From Promethearchaeota archaeon (GTDB taxonomy: Archaea > Asgardarchaeota > Lokiarchaeia > Sigynarchaeales > SOKP01), in contig JAEOTW010000075.1 in NCBI GenBank assembly GCA_016839655.1, positions 1 to 6,685 of the forward strand: a stretch of 6,685 bases of DNA, written 5' to 3'. Below the pieces are notes generated by a model. The model had not been told where the DNA came from. It worked only from the letters and a program-made list of their open reading frames with translations, and searched no databases. Each line of letters opens with the position of its first letter. Positions within the stretch are counted from its first letter, which is position 1. The position numbers and the translations under genes are program-made. Below are positions 1 through 6,685 of the stretch, piece by piece.

Positions 1-5
1 TCAAA

Positions 6-581
6 ATGGTAAATCGATGCAGATGGGCAGGAAATGACGAACAAATGATCTCTTACCATGATCTTGAATGGGGTAGTCCAGTACATGATGATCAGCTTCT
101 CTTTGAGTTTTTAATTTTAGAAGGTGCGCAAGCGGGTTTAAGCTGGAGTACAATTCTAAAAAAGCGTGAAAATTATAGGAAAGCATTCGATGACTTCAAT
201 TATAACAAAATTGCGAAGTACACTGAACAGAGGGTTGAAAAACTTATGGAAAATGAAGGCATTATTAGGAATAGACTTAAGATTGAAGCTGTTATTACAA
301 ACGCTAAAGCTTTTTTAAACGTTCAGAAAGAGTTCGGTTCATTTGACAAATATATATGGAAATTTGTTAATTATAAAACAATTGATAATAAGTTTAAAGA
401 ACTTTCAGAACTTCCGTCAAAGACTGAAGGATCAGAACAGATGAGTAAAGATTTAAAGAAACGAGGATTCAAGTTTGTTGGTCCCACAATATGCTACGCT
501 TTTATGCAAGCCGTAGGAATGGTAAATGATCACGTTCAAAACTGTTATAGATATGAGGAAGTAAATTCATTCATAAAATGA
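6..581 (+). CDS. tag: DNA-3-methyladenine glycosylase I
   Basis: Base-excision repair enzyme that cleaves the N-glycosidic bond of 3-methyladenine in alkylated DNA, acting in the cytoplasm. The 191-residue product is close in length to E. coli Tag (187) and collinear with it from end to end. The four zinc ligands of the Tag 'zinc snap' can be seen: C5 and H18 near the N terminus, H176 and C180 near the C terminus (NDHVQNC). The base-pocket residues also match: Y17, W22, E39 in LEGAQAGLSW, and W47. The LKKRENYR block and the KKRGFKFVGPTICYAFMQA block are family signatures. The ATG lies only 5 bases from the window edge, so its ribosome binding site cannot be judged; alignment to the family supports this start. 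A T-rich tract follows the stop. The gene is bacterial in type, so ancient acquisition by transfer is plausible but unproven. Identification is very secure. Confidence 0.97.
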   Translation: MVNRCRWAGNDEQMISYHDLEWGSPVHDDQLLFEFLILEGAQAGLSWSTILKKRENYRKAFDDFNYNKIAKYTEQRVEKLMENEGIIRNRLKIEAVITNAKAFLNVQKEFGSFDKYIWKFVNYKTIDNKFKELSELPSKTEGSEQMSKDLKKRGFKFVGPTICYAFMQAVGMVNDHVQNCYRYEEVNSFIK

Positions 582-877: not shown

Positions 878-1597
878 TTAAAGTAATGGTTTTAAATCAG
901 ATAAGGTTCCTTTAAATGTGGGTTCTGGAATTTCAGGGCCTAATTTTTTATTATTATTGGTTATAAGAAAAGTTTTCATTCCTAACTTTCCAGCTATTAT
1001 ATCGTGATCCTCATCACCGATCATTAAACAATTTTCGGCACTATAACCAAGTCTATTAACAATCTGTTCATAGTATATTAAATGTATTAAAGATTTGGTG
1101 GCACAACTGTTTTCAATGCTGGTTATTAAACGGTAAGGAAAATCAGCTACATCAGCCCATTCAAGACGTTGTTCAATAGCAGTTCTTGGCAGAACTGGCA
1201 TTGTAGCAATTACTAAATCATATCCTTTATCGAATGCTGCTTGAACAACCTCTCTTGCCTCAGGTTTTCGTCGAGCACAATGTTTCAATTTTTGAAATCT
1301 ATTTTTATAGAAATCGTCAAAGTAGGGTTCAATCTCTTCACGAGAATACCCTTCTATGGGAAAGAAGTGTTTTGCATATACTTCTTCGTTTGTAATATGA
1401 CCATTATTTCTTTCAACGGCTTTAGAAGCCTTAAGTATCTTTGAAATAAACTTTCTTGGAGCTATGTTTAAAGTGGCAACACTTTCTGCGAGAAGGTTCA
1501 AATATTGAGGGATAAACTTATCTAGATCTATTTCTAGAAGTGTTTTATCGAGATCAAAAAGAATCGCTTTAATATTATCATCCAATCTTTCGGTCAT
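878..1597 (-). CDS. HAD-superfamily hydrolase (probable phosphatase)
   Basis: A 239-residue soluble haloacid-dehalogenase-fold enzyme, most likely a phosphomonoesterase. All four HAD motifs are present: motif I FDLDKTLL with nucleophile D15 and acid/base D17; motif II T132 in VIATMPVLPR; motif III K168 in ATKSL; motif IV GDEDHD with D195 and D199 for Mg2+. Residues about 20-105 between motifs I and II are helical and form a C1-type cap, as in phosphoglycolate phosphatase and beta-phosphoglucomutase relatives; the cap sets substrate choice, so the substrate cannot be named. K18 replaces the usual Gly or Asn in DxD(G/N)T, a substitution also seen in other HAD proteins. The ATG at 1597 leaves ten residues before the first core strand, a normal length. 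Upstream on this strand is only a weak AAGAAG. The gene is convergent with the zinc microprotein and divergent from the arrestin-like gene. The superfamily is certain; the specific activity is not. Confidence 0.93.
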   Translation of the reverse strand: MTERLDDNIKAILFDLDKTLLEIDLDKFIPQYLNLLAESVATLNIAPRKFISKILKASKAVERNNGHITNEEVYAKHFFPIEGYSREEIEPYFDDFYKNRFQKLKHCARRKPEAREVVQAAFDKGYDLVIATMPVLPRTAIEQRLEWADVADFPYRLITSIENSCATKSLIHLIYYEQIVNRLGYSAENCLMIGDEDHDIIAGKLGMKTFLITNNNKKLGPEIPEPTFKGTLSDLKPLL

Positions 1598-1859: not shown

Positions 1860-3077
1860 TTGGATTTGGCAAAGCTAGAATTAAATGATTTAAATAACGG
1901 TTCGGTATTTATCGGAGATAAATTAAATATTAGGGCGCTATATAATTTCGAAGAAGACTCTGAAATTTTATGGAGCGGTGTTGGATTAATAACAAATCCT
2001 CCATGCAATAAGGAACTCCAAGTTTCAAAGGAAGAAATATTCTCAAAAGGGCATTTTGAATCGGGTGAGTATATTCGTGAAAAATCTCTTCTAATAAAGA
2101 GTAATGTTGTTCCAACAATAAAAAATAGAAATCTAAATTATCATCTAAAGCTTATTTTAAGACAACCAAATCCAATTAATCCAGAGGATGATTTGATCGT
2201 TAATAAAACTCATAACATTGAAATAAAAGCTAGAAATGCAGGTTTTGGGGTGAAGACACCAAATCCAATTTCATTTTCAATTTCTGGATTAAATATCCTT
2301 TTAACTAAAGATGTTTTTAAACCAGGAGAAACAATCAAGATAGGGTATACATCAGAAGAACTGAAACAACTTGAAGTAAGATTACTTCAAAACTCGAATT
2401 TGGTTTGTTATTGTGAAGCATATGGCCAAAATTGTAGAAAAGTAGAAGAACTCCCACCTGCAATTGCCGGAGATGTAAAAACTCAAAATTTTGAAAAAGA
2501 TTTTGTGCTATTAAAAGTCCCTGAAGTAGCTGAACCCAGTCATGATTATTTATGGTCTCCATCAGAAAAAGAATATTGGGGTTTTAAGTATGGAGATTAC
2601 ACAAAATGGAGCCTCCTTGTACTTGGAAAAAAGAAACCTGAATTTGGGCAAGAAATGATTAAACTAGAAGTGCCAATTACTATTACGAGAGGTCCCATTT
2701 CAGAAAAAAAGGGGGCTGTAGATTTATTTGCAGAAGGTACTGGTGGTGCTTCTTCTGTATTCGATGGACTCTCAAAATTTCAAAAAACCTATAAAGTAAT
2801 CTCAATAGATTCTGATATCGATAAATACATTTTAAGAATAAAAAACATATCAAAAGAAGATCTTAAAGGAGTTTCTGTTAATATCACAGGACTTCAAGAA
2901 GGATTATTCGAGACTAGTCCTCATTTAACTGGTTTTAATACATGGAAAAAAGGAGAAGAGAAAGAAATTATCTATAAGTCTAAACAAAATATTACTGCTT
3001 TAATCTCGATTTTGGAAGATAATAGTCAACAAAGAATTCGGATTCAATCTCCTGTCTCAGAGGCTAGTTTTTTTTGA
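1860..3077 (+). CDS. Arrestin-like multi-domain beta-sandwich protein
   Basis: A 405-residue soluble, mostly beta protein without signal peptide or membrane helix. Residues 5-125 fit an arrestin N domain: strand, GDKLNIRALY, a Trp-containing strand (ILWSGVGLI), then GEYIREKSLLIKSNVVPTI and NLNYHLKLILRQ, matching the 'pG.y.fpF...lP.s....i.Y.l.v' layout of arrestin_N. Residues 137-277 fit an arrestin C domain: a strand then DVFKPGETIKIGY, a second LLQNS strand, VLLKVPEVAEPSHDY, Y247/W250 with LLVLGK, and the closing strand LEVPITI. A linker at 281-310 leads to a third, Ig-like beta domain at 312-397 (YILRIKNIS, LKGVSVNI). C183, C185 and C192 cluster in the C domain and could bind metal. The start is TTG; an in-frame stop at 1845-1847 and the lack of ATG or GTG nearby leave little choice. 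Arrestin folds include Vps26, alpha-arrestins and bacterial Spo0M. An adaptor role beside the convergent receptor gene is inference. Other beta-sandwich families remain possible. Confidence 0.6.
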   Translation: MDLAKLELNDLNNGSVFIGDKLNIRALYNFEEDSEILWSGVGLITNPPCNKELQVSKEEIFSKGHFESGEYIREKSLLIKSNVVPTIKNRNLNYHLKLILRQPNPINPEDDLIVNKTHNIEIKARNAGFGVKTPNPISFSISGLNILLTKDVFKPGETIKIGYTSEELKQLEVRLLQNSNLVCYCEAYGQNCRKVEELPPAIAGDVKTQNFEKDFVLLKVPEVAEPSHDYLWSPSEKEYWGFKYGDYTKWSLLVLGKKKPEFGQEMIKLEVPITITRGPISEKKGAVDLFAEGTGGASSVFDGLSKFQKTYKVISIDSDIDKYILRIKNISKEDLKGVSVNITGLQEGLFETSPHLTGFNTWKKGEEKEIIYKSKQNITALISILEDNSQQRIRIQSPVSEASFF

Positions 3078-5334
3078 TTTGGATCAATTTTTTTCGCATT
3101 GGTTGAAATATTTCTTTTTGAATTAAATTGAGAATTGTTTCGGCATCATTTACTCGAATTTCTTTCATTTTATCATACAAGGATAAAACAAGGAAATTAT
3201 CTGTATTTTTTTCTTTCATTATCTTCACAGCTTTATTTATCATTATATGTTCTTCTGAAGTAAGTTTTTTTGTATGATTTACCAATTTTAATGGGGAAAT
3301 TAAGGATATATGAAGATGAGCATCAAGAAGGTCCCCCATCCCTTTAAATTGAGTTATATCTCCATTAAAATCTACAAATAAATGTCCAAATTTTTCTTCG
3401 ATATCGTACAATAGAGCATTCAATGAATTCAAAAAATCTTGAGAAGGATTCTTCGCCATTATCAGAATTATCCTAATGTTTTTATAATCTGACATTAAAA
3501 TTTTTGAATTCTGGTAATCCAACTTGAGACTTCGAGTTTGTTCTTCCGCTTCTGTTAATTCAATTCCAAAAGCGCGTACAGCTTGTAAGAATCCAGATAT
3601 CAATGCACTATCTATATTCTTACCTTTAAAAAATTGTTCATAGACAGTTAATCCAGAATTTTTCTCAGAGAGAATAACATTATGTAGACTTAATGCATCT
3701 GTGAATTTATTATACTTTTTTTGTTTATTTGCAACTAGAATCCTTCTTTTTCTCTTTACTAAAACATATCCTGAGATACTCACCACCAAAATAATAAAAA
3801 CCGAAAATAAAATCTCTAAAATAATATTGAGTGGTATTCTAAAGGGAATAATAATTGAAAATTTTTGAGTTTTTGTACCTGCATCACTATTATTGAACCA
3901 AAATAAGTACGCTTTATATGTTCCTGGAACTGGATTTTGGGAGATATTAAAAGAAAATAAAGTTTCTTGAGATAGAACTTGTTTTGTTTCTCTAAATTCT
4001 TCATAACCTAATGCATCAATCAATACATAAGTTATATGCCCTTGAATAATAGGTGTTATAACTGAGAATTTTAATGTTTGCAATGGCTCGAACTCTGTTT
4101 TTTGAATATTTAAAGAAAAATCTATATCAGGAGAATAAGCATAGATTAACCAAGTGGCATCCTCTTTTATCGTATTATTCGAAATGAAAATATAGTTTTC
4201 AGTATAGTTAAGATCTAAGTTGTGGGTAATATCAAGTCCATCTCTATAAACTGAAAGATTATACCAACTTTTTGGGTAGCAAAATTTTATTGAATAGCTT
4301 GGAGATACTCTTATAAATTCAGGACTAATAGTCCATTTATTTTCCACATTTTCCCTTATTAATACTGAACCTTCCGAGAAAAGTAAATGGTTAAGAGCAA
4401 TATTATATTTAAAATTCATTTCTAAACTTAATGATAAATTATTTCTAATAACAATATTCAACATAACTCCAGATACAAAGAAATCAAGATTCTCAACAGA
4501 AAGCATTCCATTTCCTAGTTCCATTCCGTCTGTTATAAAATATGTTTTTTCTCCAATTTTAGCCGTCATGTTAATTTCAGATGGAAAATATGTTCGATTG
4601 ACTTTCTGTTTTATCCTATGGAGAAACACATCTCCAGTCCTATTCTGCCATTCATCTAAAATATCATCATACTTACACATAGATAATTTTGATGTTGGAT
4701 TATCATTATTAATATACCAGTAATATCTATCATTCCAGCTTATTCCTGTTCCATCAAGCACTAAACAATATAATCCTGAAGATAAATAGACTGGAGATTG
4801 AAATGATTGCTTATTCCATTGAGGGATTCCTTCTGTCATATTTATTATTATGGGCATACTGTAAATTACTCCATTAGGTCTGCTAAGATTGGAATCCCAT
4901 CCCTCTATTCGAATATATACGGGTACGGGGGATGTAGTTTTAATCGTTTTATACCCAAATATCTCTACCGAATAGACTAATGTAGGTTCAGTAATATTCA
5001 TTTGCATCCCTAAAATCTCAATGTTATTACCTCTTATAGTCTCGAATCCAGTTGCCTCTTCTTCAATTATCTTTATTTCAGAATTCATCTTAATACTAGT
5101 AAAATTAAGGTCTATATCGGTTAATGTCCAATTTGGAGAAGGGAGATCAATAAGTACTGAAGGAGAATTTTCCTTTATACCATAAATTTCTGAAAACTCA
5201 ATCATTTGAAAATCTGAAGAAATTACTAAAGAATCACTGTTTTCCTGAGCATAGCAATAGCTAATATTATGAATTAGGCTAATTACAAAAACAGCTGATA
5301 TAAAAATAATATATTTTTTCCTTGTTATCTCCAA
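3064..5334 (-). CDS. Receptor-like type I membrane protein with cytosolic longin-like domain
   Basis: A 756-residue protein of no named family. Residues 1-29 are a signal peptide (RKK, hydrophobic core 8-21, likely cleavage after YCYA). Residues 30-500 are extracellular and beta-rich: a jelly-roll-like domain at about 103-242 (SPVYLSSGLYCLVLDG, then W/Y-rich strands and GDVFLHRI; C190 and C220 could pair), a second beta region at 243-400, and an Ig-like domain at 404-496. Fourteen N-x-S/T sequons occur here, against one in the cytosolic part. A transmembrane helix at 502-526 is followed by the stop-transfer KRKRR. Residues 546-665 look longin-like: two strands (HNVILSEKNSGLTVYEQFF), helix IDSALISGFLQAVRAFGIEL, three strands to IRIILIMA, then a helix. 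The rest (668-756) is mostly helical and unassigned. The start is TTG; no upstream ATG, GTG or TTG exists in frame, and the signal peptide begins here. The gene follows two GTPase genes but has its own TATA box. A surface sensor coupled to a GTPase is inference. Confidence 0.8.
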   Translation of the reverse strand: MEITRKKYIIFISAVFVISLIHNISYCYAQENSDSLVISSDFQMIEFSEIYGIKENSPSVLIDLPSPNWTLTDIDLNFTSIKMNSEIKIIEEEATGFETIRGNNIEILGMQMNITEPTLVYSVEIFGYKTIKTTSPVPVYIRIEGWDSNLSRPNGVIYSMPIIINMTEGIPQWNKQSFQSPVYLSSGLYCLVLDGTGISWNDRYYWYINNDNPTSKLSMCKYDDILDEWQNRTGDVFLHRIKQKVNRTYFPSEINMTAKIGEKTYFITDGMELGNGMLSVENLDFFVSGVMLNIVIRNNLSLSLEMNFKYNIALNHLLFSEGSVLIRENVENKWTISPEFIRVSPSYSIKFCYPKSWYNLSVYRDGLDITHNLDLNYTENYIFISNNTIKEDATWLIYAYSPDIDFSLNIQKTEFEPLQTLKFSVITPIIQGHITYVLIDALGYEEFRETKQVLSQETLFSFNISQNPVPGTYKAYLFWFNNSDAGTKTQKFSIIIPFRIPLNIILEILFSVFIILVVSISGYVLVKRKRRILVANKQKKYNKFTDALSLHNVILSEKNSGLTVYEQFFKGKNIDSALISGFLQAVRAFGIELTEAEEQTRSLKLDYQNSKILMSDYKNIRIILIMAKNPSQDFLNSLNALLYDIEEKFGHLFVDFNGDITQFKGMGDLLDAHLHISLISPLKLVNHTKKLTSEEHIMINKAVKIMKEKNTDNFLVLSLYDKMKEIRVNDAETILNLIQKEIFQPMRKKLIQIKKN
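3068..3094 (+). terminator. Oligo-T tracts ending the arrestin-like gene
   Basis: T8 (3068-3075) runs into the TGA stop of the arrestin-like gene, and T7 (3088-3094) follows 13 bases later. These fit archaeal oligo-T termination. On the other strand the same bases encode lysine codons at the C terminus of the convergent membrane protein, so terminator and coding sequence are shared. Confidence 0.45.
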
Positions 5335-5469: not shown

Positions 5470-6123
5470 TTAGTTTATTTCGGAAACCAATTTGTGATTA
5501 TAATATTTTCTTAAAATTAATCTTAGAATATCTTCGAAACAATCTAGGATTCCTTGTCCTTTTAACGCACTGGTACATCTGTTGTCAATATTCTTGTATT
5601 TATGGTATCTTATATTTTTTAGAAAATCTACAGGGTTAAATTTGTCATCTAAATCTTGTTTATTAAAAGCAATAATAATTGGAAGATCATCAATAGAATC
5701 ATTGAAATAAGACATTAATTCTTGCCATGAGATTAAATTCCTTTCATACACATCTTCCTGTGAATCTATAACGAAGATTACTCCATCCACTGCCCTTAAG
5801 GTTATAGGTCGTGTTATAAAATAGAAATCCTGCCCTGTAGTAGTATATATGTGGATTTTTAGAGCCCATTCTTGGTTTTGGAATGTGACTGTTCCATAAT
5901 CAAAAAATAATGTTCTATTTACAGTACTTTCTATACTATGAATCTCTTCTTCTTTTCCAAATTGTGAGAATAAGGCCTTAATTGAAGTGGTTTTACCCGA
6001 AAGCGCAGGTCCAAAATATACTATTTTTATGCTTATTGTTTTTTGAGAATGATCTATAATCAATATTAAACCAACGCAATATCTATTTAATTGATAATTC
6101 AAAAATAGATTTAAAAAAACCAA
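5470..6123 (-). CDS. MglA-like small GTPase
   Basis: A Ras-superfamily GTP-binding switch closest to the prokaryotic MglA group. Numbering from the longest frame (217 residues): G1 P-loop GPALSGKT at 38-45; switch I with STVNRTLFFDY (R70-T71), matching the TDRTLFFDF of MglA; G3 YTTTGQ at 93-98, where the DxxG aspartate is replaced by Thr as in the TVPGQ of MglA; RPITLRAVDGVIFVIDSQ (105-122); G4 NKQD at 154-157; G5 TSAL at 184-187. No lipidation motif. The start is uncertain: no ATG is in frame. TTG at 6123 adds a hydrophobic N-terminal stretch; TTG at 6063 gives MIIDHSQKTISIKIVYFG, nearer the family's usual N terminus, with TTAAATAG about 26 bases upstream as expected for a leaderless message. 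I slightly prefer 6063. It follows the Rab-type gene by 33 bases (or 93) on the same strand. MglA proteins cycle with roadblock partners; the longin-like domain of the next gene is a candidate partner. Confidence 0.9.
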   Translation of the reverse strand: MVFLNLFLNYQLNRYCVGLILIIDHSQKTISIKIVYFGPALSGKTTSIKALFSQFGKEEEIHSIESTVNRTLFFDYGTVTFQNQEWALKIHIYTTTGQDFYFITRPITLRAVDGVIFVIDSQEDVYERNLISWQELMSYFNDSIDDLPIIIAFNKQDLDDKFNPVDFLKNIRYHKYKNIDNRCTSALKGQGILDCFEDILRLILRKYYNHKLVSEIN

Positions 6124-6156: not shown

Positions 6157-6685
6157 TTATAGTTCTAAAGTTTTAAATCTTAAATACAATTGCTCAATAA
6201 TTGTATTAAATGCCTTAACTACTCCTTGCCCTGTTTTTGCGGATGTGAAAAAAAATTTTAAAAAATTATGTTCCTCAACAAGGTTTTGGATTTTTGATAG
6301 ATTTATACTATTTTCATCCACTAAATCAACTTTATTAGCAAATAAAACAATAGGAATATTTCCACAATTTTCTTCTACTACTTCATACCAATTCTTTATA
6401 TGCGTAAAGCTATTTTGACCAAGTGCATTTTCTTCAAGACTATATACTATAATCGCTGCTTTACTCTCTTTATAAAATAGGTGATGGAGAAAATTGAAAT
6501 CATCTTGACCTGCTATATCCCAAAATACTAATTTAACCTTATCTCCATTAAATTCCTTGTTATATTTTGAAAATTGCGCTCCAATAGTTTTTACATAATC
6601 CTTTTCAAATGTTCCTTTCGTGAATTTTTTAATTAAGGATGTTTTGCCTACTGCTCCATCTCCAACTACTACTATCTTAAATCGA
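6157..6685 (-). CDS. Rab/Ras-type small GTPase, 5' end cut by window
   Basis: A partial gene whose first complete codon is at 6684-6682; 175 residues are visible and the start lies just outside, probably only a few codons away since the first core strand RFKIVVVGDGAVGKTS is already present. All five G motifs are intact and eukaryote-like: G1 GDGAVGKTS (8-16), switch I T33 in KTIGAQF, G3 WDIAGQ (55-60) with catalytic Gln60, G4 NKVD (117-120), G5 TSAK (147-150). The residue after Gln60 is Asp, where Rabs usually have Glu. The C terminus (LYLRFKTLEL) has no cysteine, so it is not prenylated like eukaryotic Rabs; membrane attachment, if any, must be indirect. Such Rab-like proteins are abundant in Asgard archaea. 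It is the first gene of a same-strand series with the MglA-like GTPase 33 bases downstream. The family call is secure; Rab versus other Ras branches is less so. Confidence 0.93.
   Translation of the reverse strand, partial: RFKIVVVGDGAVGKTSLIKKFTKGTFEKDYVKTIGAQFSKYNKEFNGDKVKLVFWDIAGQDDFNFLHHLFYKESKAAIIVYSLEENALGQNSFTHIKNWYEVVEENCGNIPIVLFANKVDLVDENSINLSKIQNLVEEHNFLKFFFTSAKTGQGVVKAFNTIIEQLYLRFKTLEL

Follow-up and report, generated by a model that had tools for sequence, protein, structure and literature searches.

Does an Asgard archaeon carry at its surface a receptor with a cytosolic domain that acts as a small-GTPase platform? The question is raised by one gene in a 6,685-nucleotide (nt) stretch of Promethearchaeota archaeon (contig JAEOTW010000075.1 of assembly GCA_016839655.1; the whole stretch is called the window here), which an earlier note, made from the DNA letters alone, had read as a surface receptor fused to a cytosolic longin/roadblock-like domain. 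On balance, we favor the view that its product, hereafter the receptor, is an Asgard single-pass surface receptor with a cytosolic longin that would serve as a platform for a small GTPase. The frame is that of a real gene, and an artefact or chance frame was rejected, because 35 homologs were found at an E value of ≤0.001 (34 to 92% identity), 32 of them aligned over 85% or more of its length. Homologs with 68 to 70% identity were located at three loci of Lokiarchaeal metagenome-assembled genomes, so that the window, too, is very likely Lokiarchaeal. The closest full-length homolog, P0002 (89% identical), starts with Met in the protein alignment, in the column of the TTG start of the receptor.

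Hydropathy, charge, and sequon counts, used in place of a dedicated topology predictor, upheld the signal peptide, the ectodomain with N-glycosylation sequons, the single transmembrane (TM) helix, and the basic stretch behind it that had been noticed beforehand; the base positions given for the helix (residues 502 to 526, bases 3757 to 3831) and for the domain beyond it (residues 546 to 665, bases 3340 to 3699) were also correct. A hydrophobic helix lay ahead of the C-terminal domain in all 34 aligned rows, followed in 33 of them by 5 to 9 Lys/Arg within 15 residues. The remaining row, P0022, had three, together with a second hydrophobic helix at 690 to 708, where its tail leaves the family. 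Summed over 33 of the 34 rows (P0036, with its tail cut, was left out), sequons were enriched in the extracellular part (542 versus 229.8 expected from composition) and depleted in the intracellular part (25 versus 50.0). This bias is evidence, separate from hydropathy, for a cytosolic tail and an extracellular N-terminal part, and all three measures placed the C-terminal domain inside the cell, contrary to the outcome that the earlier note had named as refuting its reading. The receptor combines a signal peptide and a single TM helix with positive charge on the cytosolic side and sequons on the outer side, the features of a type I single-pass surface protein, an assignment that is well supported at the level of sequence.

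The tail modeled by AlphaFold2 consisted of strands at residues 550 to 557 and 563 to 568, a helix at 576 to 588, strands at 601 to 607, 610 to 617, and 620 to 626, and helices at 632 to 653 and 666 to 674, that is, the longin topology beta-beta-alpha-beta-beta-beta-alpha-alpha with a five-stranded sheet. The pattern described in the earlier note was present, plus one extra helix, and because of this helix the domain extends over residues 548 to 679; its proposed limits thus did not stand. Residues 748 to 756 had predicted local distance difference test (pLDDT) values under 50. The structural search that had been set beforehand as the test of the fold gave longin matches spanning model residues 22 to 153 (protein residues 548 to 679), with SNARE longins (Sec22b and VAMP7) and adaptor subunits among the top ones and Ykt6 also present, and so did not refute the earlier reading. 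The Foldseek matches included LAMTOR chains and one Streptomyces Roadblock/LC7 chain. In a finer alignment restricted to Foldseek's own list, all 50 listed matches appeared to be longin-family chains, as judged from titles and subunit identity, with no roadblock among the matches listed, and the alignments took in the helices after the sheet. A roadblock as the better fold for the tail was not favored, the finer alignment having listed what appear to be longin chains. We predict with good confidence that the tail is a longin domain, nearer to longins than to roadblocks, which sharpens the earlier double label.

Pfam gave no match to the receptor above its cut-off (weak rows around the TM helix were MRAP, E = 0.16, and MMgT, E = 0.53), and NCBIfam gave none at an E value of ≤0.1. 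Residues 527 to 756 had no Pfam match at an E value of ≤10 with filters that drop weak matches, a result that indicates a remote relationship rather than an absent one. No significant sequence relative was found in PDB, and the best matches, to SYCP3 (E = 0.026), a DNA polymerase (0.43), and a pilin (1.6), are read as chance. The architecture matched no named family, as had been suspected, and it is not unique: the receptor belongs to a large family. All 58 close relatives searched (E ≤ 1e-5) and 217 of 392 wider relatives (E ≤ 1e-10; counted without regard to group) carried the TM-longin module, and the whole receptor was matched in 58 of 117 genomes at an E value of ≤1e-20, in some by the tail alone. 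In the genomes of three relatives, the same TM helix and longin tail stood behind other ectodomains in open reading frames (ORFs) of 739 to 1926 amino acids (aa), and the longin module also occurred in soluble form, in 457-aa and 241-aa proteins.

Two database searches yielded 129 proteins (P0001 included; the second search listed the best 120 of 141). BLASTP matched the tail in 127 of them, every one with a hydrophobic segment before it. Two of the 129 proteins, P0097 and P0102, had no BLASTP match to the ectodomain of the receptor. At 30% mutual coverage, the ectodomains of 84 unique receptors from the loci of relatives (L017 and L050 extend to the end of a contig or stretch) fell into classes of 67, 12, 4, and 1; eight classes were obtained at 50% coverage, and single linkage without a coverage rule joined all 84. 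Under the 30% rule, the TM-longin module recurs behind at least four dissimilar ectodomain classes. Tandem receptor genes (two or three) without an adjacent GTPase were seen in L025, L029, L036, and L039. Proteins without a TM helix are represented by L014 6192-7565 and its 457-aa relatives in L015, L018, L019, and L021, with a cysteine-containing N terminus, then the longin module, and then a long further part, and the 241-aa longin protein of L022 (5246-5971) has a C-terminal TrmB-like winged helix (Pfam E = 2.4e-4, below the cut-off).

Which GTPase might such a tail serve? Other GTPases carry Asp in the third GTPase motif at the position where MglA has Thr. The GTPase encoded directly upstream of the receptor had MglA as its best PDB match (3t12; E = 2e-28) and a Thr aligned with that of MglA in this motif (Thr78 in the account given in part of PMC3000849), so both marks of an MglA were present; comparison with relatives put the likely start of its gene near 6063. 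The receptor belongs to an orthologous group of six rows with a Shimodaira-Hasegawa-like approximate likelihood ratio test (SH-aLRT) support of 100. An MglA-type gene lay directly upstream, at gaps of 97 to 189 nt, in all five members with upstream DNA (the sixth, L003, starts at a contig end), and a Ras-like gene stood within two genes upstream of it in four of these five loci, L002 being the exception.

A second orthologous group (eight rows, SH-aLRT 86) had an Arf/Rag-like GTPase directly downstream of the receptor in six of eight cases, at gaps of 33 to 99 nt. A free longin gene of 130 to 152 aa followed in all seven loci with DNA there (L046, cut inside the GTPase, is left out); in L055 and L059 it directly follows the receptor, and these two free longins matched a profile built from the other five at E values of 8e-42 and 7e-42 (these and the tail-profile, P-loop, and neighbor searches were run against databases of some hundreds of ORFs). 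Against profile A3, which includes one GTPase fusion from L002, hhalign gave the free longin 92.7% (E = 4e-7), with five controls at ≤0.3%. Its best PDB profile match was VAMP7 (E = 0.04, not significant), and one member had a weak Pfam match to Sybindin (E = 0.014). A receptor-tail-only profile matched two putative GTPase fusions of L002 in their longin-like halves (E = 9.7e-8 and 2e-6), and a less strict search that used a P-loop rule picked up their GTPase halves; because A3 contains one of these fusions, this match is the sole independent evidence for the fusion link. A 298-aa relative, P0141, carries the source name "GTPase domain-containing protein." The kinship to fusions and the conserved GTPase and free-longin neighbors in two groups lend circumstantial support to a GTPase link, and it is from these sequence data that we infer a coupling of receptor to GTPase.

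Several observations weigh against this view. No adjacent same-strand GTPase was found for 73 of the 84 unique receptors, and because of this a GTPase link general to all receptors was rejected. Adjacent GTPases were modestly enriched (11 of 129 neighbors versus 29 of 864 in the background; Fisher P = 0.013), in a test whose rows are related and not independent. Longins also function without GTPases. Among solved longins, none matched the TM-longin module significantly by sequence, and the free longin reached only 20% (E = 0.001) against the receptor-only profile. The second group, with an SH-aLRT of 86 only, includes the long-branch row L049. The L002 fusions have weak GTPase halves: one matched Pfam Roc below the cut-off (E = 0.0013), and a strict GTPase-motif scan flagged neither. 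Along similar lines, GTPase genes of MK-D1 are described as not sharing operons, in general, with genes for roadblock, longin, or TRAPPC3 proteins (PMC10933270); the two clusters with GTPase neighbors look like exceptions to this pattern.

Longins of SNAREs and of AP/COPI subunits bind other membrane-shaping proteins, and the tail could be a trafficking or coat adaptor of this kind, sorting or clustering the surface protein through such partners rather than regulating a GTPase. Sec22b, VAMP7, and adaptor subunits were indeed among the top structural matches, and Asgard multidomain proteins are described in which longins stand alongside adaptin appendage domains and C-terminal domains of Vps28 (PMC10936438). 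Nevertheless, structural matches carry no function, GTPases are among the conserved neighbors in two groups, and relatives exist as fusions to putative GTPases, so that we consider an adaptor unlikely. The lectin-like and macroglobulin-like folds of the ectodomain, the tandem copies without adjacent GTPases, and the majority of receptors without one would also suit an adhesin or S-layer-linked protein, whose longin only dimerizes or anchors and whose GTPase is incidental or acts on the receptor. However, the sharing of a single conserved intracellular module by at least four dissimilar ectodomain classes is receptor-like, and a passive anchor has no obvious need for it; we regard an adhesin as decidedly unlikely. 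A roadblock tail acting as an MglB-like GTPase-activating protein (GAP) for the upstream GTPase would fit the MglA type of that GTPase, the LAMTOR and Roadblock/LC7 chains found by Foldseek, and the helix that precedes the first strand in the model. It is highly improbable given that all 50 matches listed by the finer alignment appear, from titles and subunit identity, to be of the longin family and that the structural match includes the helices after the sheet.

If the longin is a GTPase platform, as we favor, the ectodomain (a lectin-like sandwich on a macroglobulin-like stalk) would bind something outside, and the binding or clustering signal would travel through the TM helix, modeled as unbroken up to the longin. 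Two receptors would then pair through their longins or, in the second group, a receptor would pair with the co-encoded free longin, and the pair would recruit the co-encoded GTPase or alter its nucleotide state. For the receptor of the window, the first candidate partner would be the MglA-type GTPase encoded directly upstream. More tentatively, an Asgard class of single-pass receptors may couple outside signals to small GTPases through a longin, possibly as a forerunner of the longin platforms on eukaryotic internal membranes.

In Lokiarchaeal genomes, 37 Rab-like proteins and 41 longin domains have been predicted, and the pairing of GTPases with regulators is called difficult, in excerpts of one study (PMC10933270); an excerpt of another leaves it open whether operons reveal Lokiarchaeal GTPase targets (PMC4917890). 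The two conserved clusters point to specific candidates for such pairing, namely, the receptor tail, the MglA-type or Arf-like GTPase, and the free longin, all of which can be made and tried in vitro. If the view is true, longin-GTPase signaling would take place at the surface of cells where internal compartments have not been observed, and prokaryotes would have a receptor-GTPase signaling system, in some cases encoded together with its GTPase and a partner longin. We found no description of a transmembrane longin receptor in searches of an open-licence library. The receptor is a real, conserved architecture and a new variant among longin proteins, with a testable receptor-GTPase hypothesis.

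Table 1. Features of the receptor, the six genes of the window (coordinates and strands per whole stretch), and orthologs of the 405-aa gene
Feature	Position	Strand	Remark
Receptor gene, 756 aa, TTG start	3064..5334	-	Open frame, 35 homologs, start column matched by P0002
Signal peptide, residues 1-30	5245..5334	-	N-terminal hydrophobic segment in 26/34 rows; the other 8/34 start later in the alignment
Extracellular region, residues 31-495	3850..5244	-	All-beta, 14 sequons
Jelly-roll/lectin-like beta-sandwich, residues 84-245	4600..5085	-	
Macroglobulin-type beta-sandwich stalk, residues 403-498	3841..4128	-	
Transmembrane helix, residues 502-526	3757..3831	-	Hydropathy and AlphaFold2; modeled as single helix to residue 548
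Longin domain (predicted), residues 548-679	3298..3693	-	AlphaFold2 and structural search
C-terminal helical extension, residues 680-756	3067..3297	-	Winged-helix-like by secondary structure only
MglA-type small GTPase, directly upstream of receptor	5470..6123	-	135-nt gap
Ras/Rab-like small GTPase	6157..6684	-	Pfam Ras 4.3e-43; runs off window
Unnamed 405-aa gene, convergent with receptor	1860..3077	+	Conserved beside receptor
HAD hydrolase	878-1597	-	
tag (DNA-3-methyladenine glycosylase I)	3-581	+	5' end open
Orthologs of 405-aa gene	L001 10259-11470; L002 10259-11470; L003 2069-3286		

The 405-aa gene overlaps the 3' end of the receptor gene by 14 bases (Table 1). A convergent gene of 403 to 406 aa was present in all six members of the receptor's orthologous group, its homology checked for L001, L002, and L003 and its identity in L045 and L048 resting on length and place. 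Both weak and insignificant matches of this gene family point to arrestins, namely, Pfam Arrestin_C (E = 0.63, for the L003 ortholog; none for the window copy) and an ARRestin domain protein in PDB (E = 0.8). Farther out, two of five loci (L002 6715-7092 and L048 5090-5467) had a 125-aa gene immediately upstream of the gene for the MglA-type GTPase, the L048 copy having no significant Pfam family. Upstream of the GTPase pair, L001 (1-6526), L045 (886-2832), and L048 (441-4436) encode tetratricopeptide repeat (TPR)-type proteins, one of them checked by Pfam, with a shared longin-like-looking end domain that hhalign scored at 38% against profile A3 and 0.1% against the receptor-only profile.

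Asgard longins are found as stand-alone proteins, in fusions with GTPases or roadblocks (PMC10933270; PDB 8yqg), and in ESCRT-related multidomain proteins (PMC10936438). In the receptor, by contrast, a single-pass surface protein has a longin as its tail, and the passages of PMC10933270 mention neither a transmembrane nor an extracellular part, the word "transmembrane" not occurring in them. The R-SNAREs Sec22b, VAMP7, and Ykt6 share with the receptor a cytosolic longin fold and a membrane anchor. They have an N-terminal longin, a SNARE motif, and no large extracellular part. In contrast, the receptor is of type I, and its longin is C-terminal, following the TM helix with only a short helix (residues 527 to 548) and no SNARE coiled-coil in between. 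In Myxococcus, the polarity switch consists of the GTPase MglA and MglB, a roadblock GAP and guanine nucleotide exchange factor without an ectodomain. As in the window, an MglA-type GTPase is there encoded beside a longin/roadblock-superfamily domain, whereas the longin of the window is fused to a receptor. The signal recognition particle (SRP) receptor (SR-alpha longin on SR-beta GTPase), Ragulator, TRAPP, and Mon1-Ccz1 are likewise longin/roadblock platforms for small GTPases at membranes, and we know of none among them that covalently joins the platform to a large extracellular domain. Plexins, eukaryotic single-pass receptors with a small-GTPase regulator as their tail, work on a principle analogous to that proposed for the receptor, with an unrelated intracellular fold.
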